64,000 bases of DNA from Rhabdothermincola sediminis (GTDB lineage: Bacteria; Actinomycetota; Acidimicrobiia; Acidimicrobiales; Acidimicrobilacustridaceae): assembly GCF_014805525.1 (NCBI RefSeq), contig NZ_JACFSZ010000008.1, forward strand, positions 62,001 through 126,000, read 5' to 3'. The position numbers and the translations under genes are program-made. The number at the start of each line of letters is the position of its first letter. Positions within the stretch are counted from its first letter, which is position 1. The notes under the pieces were generated by a model. It had not been told where the DNA came from, ran no database searches, and saw only the letters and a program-made list of their open reading frames with translations. Below are positions 33,806 to 55,716 of this stretch, piece after piece.

Positions 33806-34405
33806 GTGGTCAATCCCCTCAACCTCTCCCGATCAGACGGTCCCACGCGCCTGAAGCGAAACCGCCTGGGGCTCGGCGCCTTGCTGGTCGTCACGGCGAC
33901 GCTGCTCGGACTCCTGCCGTTGACGACGGTGGACGCAGCGACGGCGCCCATCCGGTACGGCTGGAACGGCGGCCTGCAAGGCTGGGTCGGCGAGAACAGC
34001 CAGGCATCCGTCGACACGACGACGAAGTACGAAGGCGCTGGCGCGCTGGCGGGCACCCGCTCCGTGACCCGGAGCTGGAACACCCTGCGGCTGAACAGCC
34101 CGGTCTTCTCACCGATCGATCTCCGCACCTCGGGCACGGAGCTGTCCACCTACGTGTACGTCCCCGTCGGCACGCCAGGACGGTGGAGTGCCCGTCTCAA
34201 CGTGCAGAGCCCCTCGTGGGTATGGGCGTTCGGTCCGGCCGTTCCGGTCACCCCCGGACAGGACGCACTAGACCATTCGTGGGCCCCGGTCACGAGATGT
34301 TCACCTTCACGCCGGGTGATCTTCCCGAGCAGCAGCGTGGCGGTGGGCCGCCTGGGTCTCGAACCCAGCACCTTGGGATTAAAAGTCCCCTGCTCTACCC
34401 GATGA
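33806..34405 (+). pseudogene. Truncated secreted protein with carbohydrate-binding-like domain
   Basis: The N-terminal part has a Sec signal peptide (LGALLVVTATLLGLLPLTTVDA) and a beta-sandwich resembling a family 4/9 carbohydrate-binding module (YGWNGGLQGWVGENSQASV ... WVWAFGPAVPVTPGQ). Homology-like sequence stops at about 34263; the rest of the frame (DALDHSWAPV onward) is unrelated and reads into the antisense of the tRNA-Lys gene before stopping. The downstream bulk of the original protein is missing. GTG 33806, behind AAAGGAAGGTC, is the likely start; ATG 33788 is an alternative. Confidence 0.7.
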
Positions 34406-45987: not shown

Positions 45988-46524
45988 GTGACGCCCGATG
46001 CCGAGGACCTGCTGGCCCCCGATGTGCTCGCAGATCTCGAGCACCAACCGATAGACCGGGTCCGGGCCAGCCGGGCCGCGTGCATCGAGGTCGAGACGGG
46101 CCTGTCCTACCTGCGGCGCCTGGTGCAAGGACCGCTCGACATCGTGAGTCGCGAGCGCGCCCGGCGTGATGCGGGCCAGCCTGAGCCCGCGGACCTGTCG
46201 GCGCTGGTGAAGGAGCTGCCCGATCTGCTCGCGGACGGTACCCGGGCGCAGGGCGTCGGCCGGTTGCCACAAACCTTGGAGCCCACCACCGTCGATCCGC
46301 AGCTCGCAGCGGAGCTGGCCGCCCTGCTGGGCGACGGCCGGCTCGCCGCGGTGACCTCGATGCCCGACGACGAGCTGCGTGCCCTCGAGGGCGCGCTGGC
46401 CGACATCGAGCGGCGGGTGTCCGACCGCCGGCGAGCCTTCCACGAACGCATCGACGCCCTGCAAGCGGAGCTGACCCGCCGATACCGGACGGGTGAGGCG
46501 TCGGTGGAGTCGCTGCTGGAGTGA
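45988..46524 (+). CDS. RsiG-like anti-sigma factor with two c-di-GMP-binding motifs
   Basis: The 178-aa protein is helical with no membrane segment. Residues 36-51 (ETGLSYLRRLVQGPLD) fit exactly the RsiG signature E(X)3S(X)2R(X)3Q(X)3D. Residues 141-156 (ERRVSDRRRAFHERID) give a second copy with His in place of Gln. In Streptomyces, RsiG uses two such helices in an antiparallel coiled coil to bind c-di-GMP and then to sequester sigma WhiG. Homologues in Acidimicrobiia are usually annotated as aerial mycelium formation proteins. GTG 45988 is used. No WhiG-like sigma gene or cyclase is in the window, so partner and output are unknown. Confidence 0.75.
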   Translation: MTPDAEDLLAPDVLADLEHQPIDRVRASRAACIEVETGLSYLRRLVQGPLDIVSRERARRDAGQPEPADLSALVKELPDLLADGTRAQGVGRLPQTLEPTTVDPQLAAELAALLGDGRLAAVTSMPDDELRALEGALADIERRVSDRRRAFHERIDALQAELTRRYRTGEASVESLLE

Positions 46525-46546
46525 CCCGGCCCTAACCTTTGGGGAC

Positions 46547-46915
46547 GTGAACGAGCTGGAGCAGCGATGGAGCGACCTCGGTGCGTTCATCCGTGAGCAG
46601 CGCCGGGTGGGCCAGCTCTCGCTGCGGAAGCTCTCGCAGCTCGCTGGGGTGTCGAACCCCTACCTCAGCCAGATCGAGCGCGGGCTTCGCAAGCCGTCCG
46701 CTGAGATCCTGCAACAGATCGCTCATGCCCTCGAGATCTCCGCGGAGACCCTCTACGTGCGAGCCGGCATCCTCGATCAGCGCGACGGTTCGGTCGACGT
46801 GGTGGGGGAGATCCGCCGTGACCCGGGCCTGACCGAGACCCAGAAGAAGACCCTCGTCCACATCTACGAGACCTTCCGGGCCGAATCCGAACCCGGCGAC
46901 CGCGTTGCCAGCTGA
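46547..46915 (+). CDS. XRE-family helix-turn-helix regulator
   Basis: The 122-aa protein has an XRE HTH at residues 15-72 (LSLRKLSQLAGVSNPYLSQIERG, LQQIAHALEISAETLYVRAG), then a short helical tail (TETQKKTLVHIYETFRAES). It resembles mycobacterial Rv0474 and is similarly placed upstream of mshA, with a 5-base gap. GTG 46547 fits the family N-terminus. Target genes are unknown. Confidence 0.88.
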   Translation: MNELEQRWSDLGAFIREQRRVGQLSLRKLSQLAGVSNPYLSQIERGLRKPSAEILQQIAHALEISAETLYVRAGILDQRDGSVDVVGEIRRDPGLTETQKKTLVHIYETFRAESEPGDRVAS

Positions 46916-46920
46916 TCCGC

Positions 46921-48129
46921 ATGCGCAACCTAGCTGTCCTCTCCCTCCACACCTCCCCGCTCGTACAGCCCGGCATCGGCGACAGCGGGGGCATGAACGT
47001 CTACGTCCGCGAGCTCGTGGGCGCGCTGGCGCAAGCTGGCGTCCACTCGACGGTCTACGTGCGTCGCTGGCGCCACGACCTCCCCGAGACCATCGAGGTG
47101 GAGGCGGGTTTCCGGGTGGTCCACGTCGAGGCCGGACCGTACGACCTGAGCAAGGAACAGCTTCCGGAGGTGACCGATGAGTTCGCCGAGGCCGTGGGGC
47201 GACACCTTCGCCGGGGTGGTGACACCGACGCCATCCACGCCAACTACTGGCTGTCGGGGGTGGCGGGCCACCGGCTCAAGCACGAGCTCTCGCTCCCACT
47301 GGTCTCGACCTTCCACACGCTCGCCAGAGTGAAGGCGGAGACGGGCGACCCGGAGCCGGCCAGGCGTGTCGAGGCCGAGACCGAGGTCGTGTCCTGCTCC
47401 GATGCACTGCTCGCGTCGTGCGAGACGGAGCTGGAACAGCTCGTCGAGCTGTACGGCGCGCCGCGGGAGCGGGTGGAGATCGTGCCACCCGGTGTCGACC
47501 ACGCCTTCTTCTCGCCGGGTGATCGCCGCGGCGCGAGGCAGGCGCTCGGACTGGGGGACCACCCAGTGCTGCTCTTCGTGGGCCGGATCCAACCGCTCAA
47601 GGGGCTCACCATCGCCATCCGCTGCCTGGCGCTGATCGACCCCCGAGCGGTGCTGGTCGTGGTCGGCGGGCCGAGCGGGATAGACGGTGAGGCCGAGCAA
47701 CGCCGGGCGCGGGCACTGGTGAGCGAGCTCGGGTTGGGTGACCGGGTGCGGTTCGTGCCCCCACAGCCCCATCACCTGCTGTCCACCTACTACCGCAGCG
47801 CTGACGTGTGCGTCGTACCGAGCCGATCGGAGTCCTTCGGGCTGGTGGCCTTGGAGGCTGCCGCGTGCGGCACCCCGGTCGTGGCCGCCAGCGTCGGCGG
47901 GCTCACCACGCTGGTCCAGCACGGCCGCACCGGGTTTCTCGTCGACGAGCGCGACCCGGAGGCCTTCGCCGGGTACGTGAGCGAGATCATCGCCGACCAC
48001 GAGCTGGCCGAAGGGTTGGCGAGGTCGGCCGCCGTGAGGGCCAGCCGGTACACGTGGTCGACGACCGCTGCCCGGCTGCGCCGTCTCTACGCGGATCTCG
48101 CCGCCCGATCGCTCGTGACCTGCTCGTGA
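46921..48129 (+). CDS. mshA: D-inositol-3-phosphate glycosyltransferase (mycothiol synthesis)
   Basis: The 402-aa GT4 enzyme begins LAVLSLHTSPLVQPGIGDSGGMNVYVREL, the MshA signature for inositol-phosphate acceptor and UDP-GlcNAc donor, and has LFVGRIQPLKGL and SRSESFGLVALEAAACGTPVV in the donor half. It makes the first intermediate of mycothiol, the actinobacterial redox thiol. The assignment is by motif and neighbourhood; related sucrose-phosphate-synthase-like GT4 enzymes cannot be fully excluded. Start ATG 46921. Confidence 0.85.
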   Translation: MRNLAVLSLHTSPLVQPGIGDSGGMNVYVRELVGALAQAGVHSTVYVRRWRHDLPETIEVEAGFRVVHVEAGPYDLSKEQLPEVTDEFAEAVGRHLRRGGDTDAIHANYWLSGVAGHRLKHELSLPLVSTFHTLARVKAETGDPEPARRVEAETEVVSCSDALLASCETELEQLVELYGAPRERVEIVPPGVDHAFFSPGDRRGARQALGLGDHPVLLFVGRIQPLKGLTIAIRCLALIDPRAVLVVVGGPSGIDGEAEQRRARALVSELGLGDRVRFVPPQPHHLLSTYYRSADVCVVPSRSESFGLVALEAAACGTPVVAASVGGLTTLVQHGRTGFLVDERDPEAFAGYVSEIIADHELAEGLARSAAVRASRYTWSTTAARLRRLYADLAARSLVTCS

Positions 48130-48180: not shown

Positions 48181-48651
48181 ATGGCTGACGAGATCGCGAC
48201 CCGGGAGGCGCGGGACCGGGTCGAGGGACTCATCGACCGATGGCTCGCGGACCAACTCGCCGGCAACCCGGTGGTGGTGGCCGTCGAGAAGCACGTCGAT
48301 CCACTCGTCGGCGATCGTCGCTGGTCCGTGCGGATCCACGGGGAGGAGAAGGACGTCTACACGGTCCGGTACGCGCTGCGGCAGCGGAGCCTGCACTACG
48401 AGACCTACGTCATGCCTGCGCCGGAGGAGAACCACGCCCGGTTCTACGAGCACCTCCTGCGTCGCAACGCGGGCTTCAACGGCATGGCGTTCGTCATCGG
48501 TGAGGAGGACGCGGTGTTCCTCGTGGGCCAGCTCCCCATCCACGCGGTGGACGAGGGGGAGCTCGATCGGATCCTGGGCTCGGTCTACTCGTATGTCGAG
48601 CAGTGCTTCCGTCCCGCGCTGCGGATCGGCTTCGCCTCACGATTTCGATGA
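48181..48651 (+). CDS. YbjN-domain protein
   Basis: The 156-aa protein matches the YbjN/type III secretion chaperone-like fold family as in Rv0487, with RWSVRIHGEEKDVYTVRYALRQRSLHYETYVMP and NHARFYEHLLRRNAGFNGMAFVI segments. Function of the family is not established; the fold suggests protein binding. It is the gene after mshA in mycobacteria too. ATG 48181 is used. Confidence 0.8.
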   Translation: MADEIATREARDRVEGLIDRWLADQLAGNPVVVAVEKHVDPLVGDRRWSVRIHGEEKDVYTVRYALRQRSLHYETYVMPAPEENHARFYEHLLRRNAGFNGMAFVIGEEDAVFLVGQLPIHAVDEGELDRILGSVYSYVEQCFRPALRIGFASRFR

Positions 48652-55014: not shown

Positions 55015-55716
55015 TCAACCGGTGGCGTCGCGCAGCGCTTCGAGCATCGCGGCCACCCGGCCCGGCTCTGCCGGCGGCGGTGGGCTGGCCGGGGTGCTCG
55101 GTGGGGCGGGGTCGGGTTCCGCCGGCGGGTGGGTCGCCGGCGGGCTCGTGGTGGATGCTCTCGGAGCGGCAGCTCCGAAGCCGCCGGCCGAGCCGTTCGT
55201 CGTGACCTCCGACCCGCCGGAGCCCTCGTCCGCCGAGCCGCCGCCGGCCACGGCCATGAACCGGTGGACCACGAACTCCCGGTCCCCCACGAAGGTGGTG
55301 CCGATCCCGATGTGGGTGAACTGGGGATCGACCAGGTTGGCGAGGTGCGGGGGACTGTTGAGGAAGGCTTGCCAGATGCCCTGCCGGTCGGTGCCGGTGC
55401 CGACGTTCTCGCCCAGCTTCGTCCAGTCGGCCGTGACCCCCCCGGCGAGGTTCGGGTCGTGGGAGATCGCGCCGTCGGCGGCCATCTTCTCCGACCAGCG
55501 TTGGGCCAGCGAGGAGAGGTTGGCATCGAGCTGCAGTGGAGCGAGGCCGCGCGAGGACCGCAGGTCGTTCACCAGACGCAGCCACTCGCCGGTGCTTTGG
55601 GCGTGGACTGGCGAGGCCCACAGGCCAGCGGCGGCGATCACCGCCAGGGCCAGCACGAGGGCCGCGGGGAGCCTCCCGTGGCTCGCCCTCCGAACCCGCT
55701 GGTGTGACATCCTCAT
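55015..55716 (-). CDS. Secreted CAP/SCP-domain protein
   Basis: The 233-aa protein has a signal peptide (LPAALVLALAVIAAAGLWASPVHA), a CAP domain (about 40-160: WLRLVNDLRSSRGLAPL, LAQRWSEKMAADGAISH, ENVGTG, NSPPHLANLVD, IGIGTTF) and a long C-terminal tail rich in Pro, Ala and Gly. The His residues of the CAP cavity are present (ISHDP, PPHLAN). CAP proteins are secreted and often cell-wall associated. It stands alone, in the same direction as and 43 bases upstream of the ABC ATPase gene. ATG 55716 or 55710. Confidence 0.87.
   Translation of the reverse strand: MRMSHQRVRRASHGRLPAALVLALAVIAAAGLWASPVHAQSTGEWLRLVNDLRSSRGLAPLQLDANLSSLAQRWSEKMAADGAISHDPNLAGGVTADWTKLGENVGTGTDRQGIWQAFLNSPPHLANLVDPQFTHIGIGTTFVGDREFVVHRFMAVAGGGSADEGSGGSEVTTNGSAGGFGAAAPRASTTSPPATHPPAEPDPAPPSTPASPPPPAEPGRVAAMLEALRDATG

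Follow-up and report, generated by a model that had tools for sequence, protein, structure and literature searches.

The Rhabdothermincola sediminis genome encodes, in the 64,000-nucleotide stretch of DNA analyzed here (the window), an anti-sigma factor of the RsiG type whose identity is well supported and which is ordinary for its class, the Acidimicrobiia. RsiG is a known bacterial protein that holds the sigma factor WhiG inactive by means of c-di-GMP. On the model of the solved complexes of S. venezuelae and R. radiotolerans for ligand binding, WhiG binding, and release, the window protein is very probably a c-di-GMP-armed anti-sigma factor for the WhiG of its own genome. This role is supported by the sequence, by profile membership, by a predicted helical hairpin, by a gene for the partner that keeps the residues contacting c-di-GMP, and by co-occurrence with that partner.

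The rsiG gene lies at positions 45988 to 46524 on the plus strand, starts with GTG, and encodes 178 aa. Does the protein carry the residues that define RsiG? The published motif is E(X)3S(X)2R(X)3[Q/H](X)3D (PMC8325347), and the window protein contains it twice, with the first residues of the two copies 105 apart. Motif 1 (ETGLSYLRRLVQGPLD; residues 36 to 51, positions 46093 to 46140, plus strand) has E36, S40, R43, Q47, and D51, an exact match to E(X)3S(X)2R(X)3Q(X)3D. Motif 2 (ERRVSDRRRAFHERID; residues 141 to 156, positions 46408 to 46455, plus strand) has E141, S145, R148, H152, and D156; His replaces Gln there, and a strict-Gln form of the motif fails at this copy. The original prediction had described this open reading frame with both motifs, and the sequence confirmed it. 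Of the open frames in the window that reach 60 aa (600 in all), one, rsiG, shows the pattern E...S..R...[QH]...D, and there it is present twice. When the RsiG residues were shuffled 20,000 times, 6 shuffles gave one or more copies of the motif and none gave two, which places it above chance. The RsiGs of Rubrobacter (7lq2, 7lq3, 7lq4) and Thermoleophilia share the motif, a coiled-coil element, and a WhiG partner with the window protein; however, they are one-motif chains that act as homodimers (PMC8325347), whereas the window protein has both motifs on one chain.

We then turned to family membership and fold. The protein matches the Pfam RsiG profile PF22802 in two stretches (E = 4.3e-22; 78 bits versus a cut-off of 27). 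The top match in a PDB sequence search was S. venezuelae RsiG (6pfj_T; E = 1.6e-13, query residues 21 to 177), followed by the three Rubrobacter single-motif RsiG entries, which matched the C-terminal half. Structure prediction, one of the checks proposed earlier, was run with AlphaFold2 on the RsiG chain by itself, with an input alignment in which the window protein was joined by 84 of the 87 other class loci (85 sequences). The model (mean pLDDT, 90.4; pTM, 0.82) revealed long helices at residues 22 to 61 and 127 to 168 that form an antiparallel hairpin, with motif 1 in the first helix and motif 2 in the second. Only four PDB chains matched this model in Foldseek at E ≤ 0.001, all of them S. 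venezuelae RsiG from the WhiG complex (E = 1e-4 to 4e-4; 32 to 33% identity), and the next match was at E = 0.42. The S. venezuelae protein (6pfj and 6pfv, where the PDB molecule name is "AmfC protein") is also close in length (176 versus 178 aa) and has its two motifs on antiparallel helices; it differs in the stacking residue of the second motif, which is Gln there and His in the window protein.

Is there a WhiG in this genome for RsiG to act on? The window genome (G000; 3.29 Mb, 49 contigs) carries a WhiG orthologue at G000:C20:14889-15560 (minus strand), with 279 bits to the FliA/WhiG model and 333.9 bits to S. venezuelae WhiG (6pfj_A). This orthologue retains K57, G61, and R62, the WhiG residues in contact with c-di-GMP in the solved structure (PMC8325347). 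The original prediction of an RsiG-like protein, to be abandoned if the genome had no WhiG/FliA-like sigma factor, is thus upheld by profile, predicted fold, and partner. It had also placed the cognate sigma factor outside the window. The searches gave two FliA/WhiG matches over the curated cut-off and four weaker ones; among the matches listed, the two over the cut-off are on contigs C20 and C18, and the window is on C8.

The second FliA-type sigma factor (C18:44647-45312; locus L098) scored 201.6 bits versus the curated cut-off of 189.6. Its passing the cut-off is what favors the idea that the target of RsiG is another sigma factor, for instance this one. We consider this very unlikely because the C18 protein reads KHIVFQ at the c-di-GMP contact site, compared to KYVAGR in WhiG, so that both Gly and Arg are lost, and because the WhiG class closely tracks RsiG. 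By eye, the C18 gene is downstream of genes resembling gyrB and gyrA, in a genome that has no flagellin match.

The WhiG of contig C20 is the more probable partner, and its contact residues are widely kept. We read 27 WhiG rows, of which two pairs were one gene fetched twice, and the pattern was readable in 25; K-x3-G-R was retained in 23 of these, and Ser replaced Gly in 2. One of these 2 is the WhiG of G079 (L099), from the window's own family, which has Ser and not Gly as one of its three contact residues. Local synteny of actinobacterial whiG-like genes was noted in a 2013 review (PMC4255298). In all 19 twenty-kb loci, including that of the window genome, rpsB was found within ∼5 kb of whiG and in the same orientation. 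In the window genome, the surroundings also hold genes for an M23 peptidase, a tyrosine recombinase, DprA, and a ChlI/ComM-type protein. In its C-terminal part, the peptidase, which is encoded between rpsB and whiG (L097:8115-9737, minus strand), also matches the alpha/beta-hydrolase-like DUF7379 and DUF676. To our knowledge, this is an unusual combination of domains. The window genome yielded 24 GGDEF match rows, two of which are pieces of one frame, and c-di-GMP is therefore likely made and used as a signal in this organism.

How, then, would RsiG control WhiG? By analogy with the solved complexes, the two long helices would pack as an antiparallel hairpin with one binding motif each, and between them the two motifs would grip a c-di-GMP dimer. 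Ser and Glu would hold the ribose, Arg and Asp would read the guanines, and Gln47 and His152, the latter in place of Gln, would stack on guanine. RsiG loaded with c-di-GMP would bind the C20 WhiG and keep it away from RNA polymerase, and a drop in c-di-GMP would set WhiG free. For the RsiGs of S. venezuelae, R. radiotolerans, and C. woesei, c-di-GMP is reported to be bound more tightly when WhiG is present (PMC8325347).

RsiG and WhiG were found together across the class. At E ≤ 0.001, RsiG was present in 89 of 148 sampled class genomes and in 80 of the 110 good ones. For WhiG orthologues we used a threshold of E ≤ 1e-70, which was set after seeing a gap between 249 and 223 bits. Both proteins were present in 87 of the 148 genomes and neither in 57; two had RsiG only (G118 and G119) and two had WhiG only (G016 and G103), so that 144 agree, in a raw genome count that ignores shared ancestry and takes many of its negatives from one small-genome family (f15). 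The sigma factor match in G119 ends at a contig end and covers positions 96 to 223 of 224. Thus, the RsiG-WhiG pair is common in Acidimicrobiia. Phylum-wide, the RsiG profile matched 248 of 396 genomes. Schumacher and co-workers described 130 twin-motif RsiG homologues, best represented in Streptomycetaceae, Geodermatophilaceae, and Pseudonocardiaceae, and found the twin-motif form in three of four Acidimicrobiales (PMC8325347); the family and its presence in Acidimicrobiales were therefore known already.

The surroundings of rsiG are also partly shared within the class. Downstream of rsiG in the window, all on the plus strand, are genes for an XRE-type helix-turn-helix protein (46547 to 46915; Pfam HTH_3, 5.3e-12 on the longer ORF 46493-46915), an MshA-like GT4 glycosyltransferase (46921 to 48129; TIGR03449, 394.5 bits, below the cut-off of 462.5), and a YbjN-family protein (48181 to 48651; Pfam PF10722, 5e-07). 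When the genes that follow rsiG in the same orientation were counted over the 89 Acidimicrobiia loci, the XRE-type gene was present in 41, the glycosyltransferase in 62, and a YbjN gene in 30; these counts are lower bounds because flanks were only ∼1.5 kb in 31 loci. The 70 loci from outside the class, mostly with 1.5-kb flanks, had no glycosyltransferase and three XRE matches. One Acidimicrobiia relative, on JAFIEP010000089.1, is 52% identical to the window protein, shares with it the Gln of motif 1 and the His of motif 2, and is followed by glycosyltransferase, YbjN, and MFS-type genes in matching order; it differs in that the intervening XRE-type gene, placed between rsiG and the glycosyltransferase, is matched on the other strand. 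Helical hairpins are common, and a general coiled coil with motif residues in place by chance might be proposed instead. The class synteny, together with the profile, the predicted fold, the co-occurrence of the partner, and the shuffle control, refutes this proposal and leaves it next to no probability.

Having identified the protein as RsiG, we asked whether His152 sets it apart; the original prediction had called the change from Gln informative about evolution of the switch. Of the 89 class genomes with an RsiG match, 88 loci were read, since G014, a weak match, was missed by our own profile. At the stacking position of motif 1, these 88 proteins have Gln in 54 and His in 34; at that of motif 2, His is the commonest residue (55), followed by Phe (16), Gln (10), and Tyr (7). 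The alignment of Acidimicrobiia homologues that had been suggested as a check thus puts His in the majority, and the combination in the window protein (ESRQD with ESRHD) is the commonest in the class (20 of 88). With His a common state at this position and [Q/H] already written into the published motif, the window rsiG is ordinary in this respect, and the change from Gln does not single it out. What gives the His observation its value is the broader comparison to which it led.

For this comparison, 70 loci were read from the 222 matched genomes outside the class: the 30 best-scoring and 40 picked for family spread among the matches listed, a choice that passes over weaker-matching families (for example, f43, f70, and f78). 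The resulting set of 135 twin-motif proteins comprises the 88 class loci, 46 from outside the class (including the odd L240, described below), and one named relative. In motif 1, the stacking residue is Gln in 89 and His in 46 and nothing else. In motif 2, it takes seven states: His in 63, Gln in 30, Phe in 20, Leu in 11, Tyr in 7, Ile in 3, and Met in 1. The 24 single-motif RsiGs that we read have only Gln or His at this position, and the 11 proteins read from family f55, which we infer to be Streptomyces, are all Gln/Gln. On a tree from whose alignment both stacking columns had been removed, parsimony gave 24 changes for motif 2 (seven states) and 15 for motif 1 (two states); when motif 2 was recoded as His or not, the number was 14. 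Compensation between the two stacking residues was dropped as an explanation, as there were 6 independent pairs on supported branches and the sign test had a median P of 1.

The other motif residues behave differently. Ser and Arg of both motifs are invariant in all 135 proteins. Glu was kept in 110 and Asp in 112 in motif 1, compared to 132 and 123, respectively, in motif 2. This greater variation of Glu and Asp in motif 1 indicates that the freedom of motif 2 is confined to its stacking position and does not extend to the whole motif. In the passages of PMC8325347 available to us, the sole exception reported to motif conservation was Gln to His in motif 1, and we found there no description of wide second-motif variation (Phe, Tyr, Leu, Ile, Met). 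A literature search at the level of titles and the beginnings of abstracts, with passages of PMC13232838 and PMC4255298, pointed to no other paper on such variation. Our comparison therefore qualifies the published generalization that the variable motif residue is in motif 1 only, and the natural variants (Gln, His, Phe, Tyr, and Leu) are material for probing the role of the stacking residue.

Could the relaxed stacking residue of the second motif mean that RsiG holds WhiG with a weakened or asymmetric dependence on c-di-GMP? The seven states at motif 2, against Gln or His in every motif 1, speak for it, as does the larger number of parsimony changes, a comparison between unequal numbers of states that comes down to 14 changes when scored as His or not. 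However, the other four motif 2 residues are intact in the window protein, no protein of the set departs from Ser or Arg, and it is in motif 1 that Glu and Asp vary more. Moreover, a His-type RsiG, the single-motif protein of C. woesei, was assayed and binds c-di-GMP (PMC8325347), although its His is in a single-motif chain and His152 of the window protein is in the second motif. On balance we regard weakened or asymmetric dependence as rather unlikely and favor a c-di-GMP-armed RsiG.

What the RsiG-WhiG pair controls in Acidimicrobiia was addressed with two single markers, flagellin and PilM, in counts that ignore shared ancestry. Profile searches of the window genome found no flagellin-N match and no PilM match. 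Flagellin was present in 22 of the 148 class genomes, every one of them WhiG positive, and PilM in 46 of 89 WhiG-positive genomes versus 2 of 59 others. Both markers were absent from 36 of the 87 genomes with RsiG and WhiG, and the regulon in these 36 is a testable question. In some flagellated genomes (G107, G036, and G034), a second FliA-type sigma factor gene is within a few kilobases of flagellin, an arrangement suggesting a flagellar sigma factor other than WhiG there. A broader reading is possible but doubtful: after an intragenic duplication, motif 1 may have stayed Gln or His, like the single-motif RsiGs, while the stacking position of motif 2 was freed phylum-wide, giving an asymmetric hold on the c-di-GMP dimer, with the switch in Acidimicrobiia like the window organism controlling neither flagella nor PilM-type type IV pili. 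We gave this joint reading slightly more weight before it emerged that Glu and Asp vary more in motif 1, and lowered it for that reason.

The canonical WhiG promoter, TAAA-N14-16-GCCGATAA, had no exact match in the window genome. With up to two mismatches and a spacing of 15, there were 11 sites versus 5 for the reversed pattern, and by eye the genes beside these 11 included no convincing target. Exact sites showed no excess across the 148 class genomes (16 versus 16 reversed in WhiG-positive genomes; 19 versus 17 in the others). In 20 PilM loci, we counted 38 sites with up to two mismatches versus 41 reversed, which gives no sign that WhiG drives PilM pili through the canonical consensus. An excess at the remaining loci (94 versus 39 reversed) was discounted because the pattern itself had been used to select 11 loci, a single locus (L116) contributes 17 sites, and sites with overlapping spacings entered the count repeatedly. 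The sole lead is an exact TAAA-N16-GCCGATAA site present in two congeners, G066 and G078 (L045 near 5849; L062 near 5838, minus strand), with a changed spacer. The site is 7 bases upstream of the start of a CAP-domain protein (PF00188) and 2.9 kb from rsiG, and we take it as a possible WhiG promoter from which a leaderless transcript would start. The window has a relative of this CAP-domain protein at 55015 to 55716 (minus strand; E = 1.8e-17); the one WhiG-type site found in the window with up to two mismatches, at 34380 (plus strand), is away from that gene.

Finally, a half-domain tree of 18 chosen twin loci and 24 single-motif loci was used to trace how the second repeat arose. The 17 canonical second halves formed one group (98/90), which fits a single origin. 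Locus L240 (2480-3001, minus strand; genome G250, family f74, outside Acidimicrobiia) encodes a 174-aa RsiG with two motifs, ESRHD and ESRHD, and the shortest motif spacing of the 135 proteins (85). By BLAST, its two halves are nearest to single-motif RsiG of family f74 (65% and 60%). The first half groups with these single-motif proteins in the tree (98/89), and constraining it to the canonical first halves gave a p-AU of 0.074; the second half was placed with the canonical second halves without support (46/0). A single-sequence model of L240 had a mean pLDDT of 72.3. These data are no more than suggestive of a second duplication to the twin-motif form, with the tree backing the first half only. 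In single genomes, the RsiG profile gave five matches in G205 and six in G250, and both probably carry several RsiG copies.
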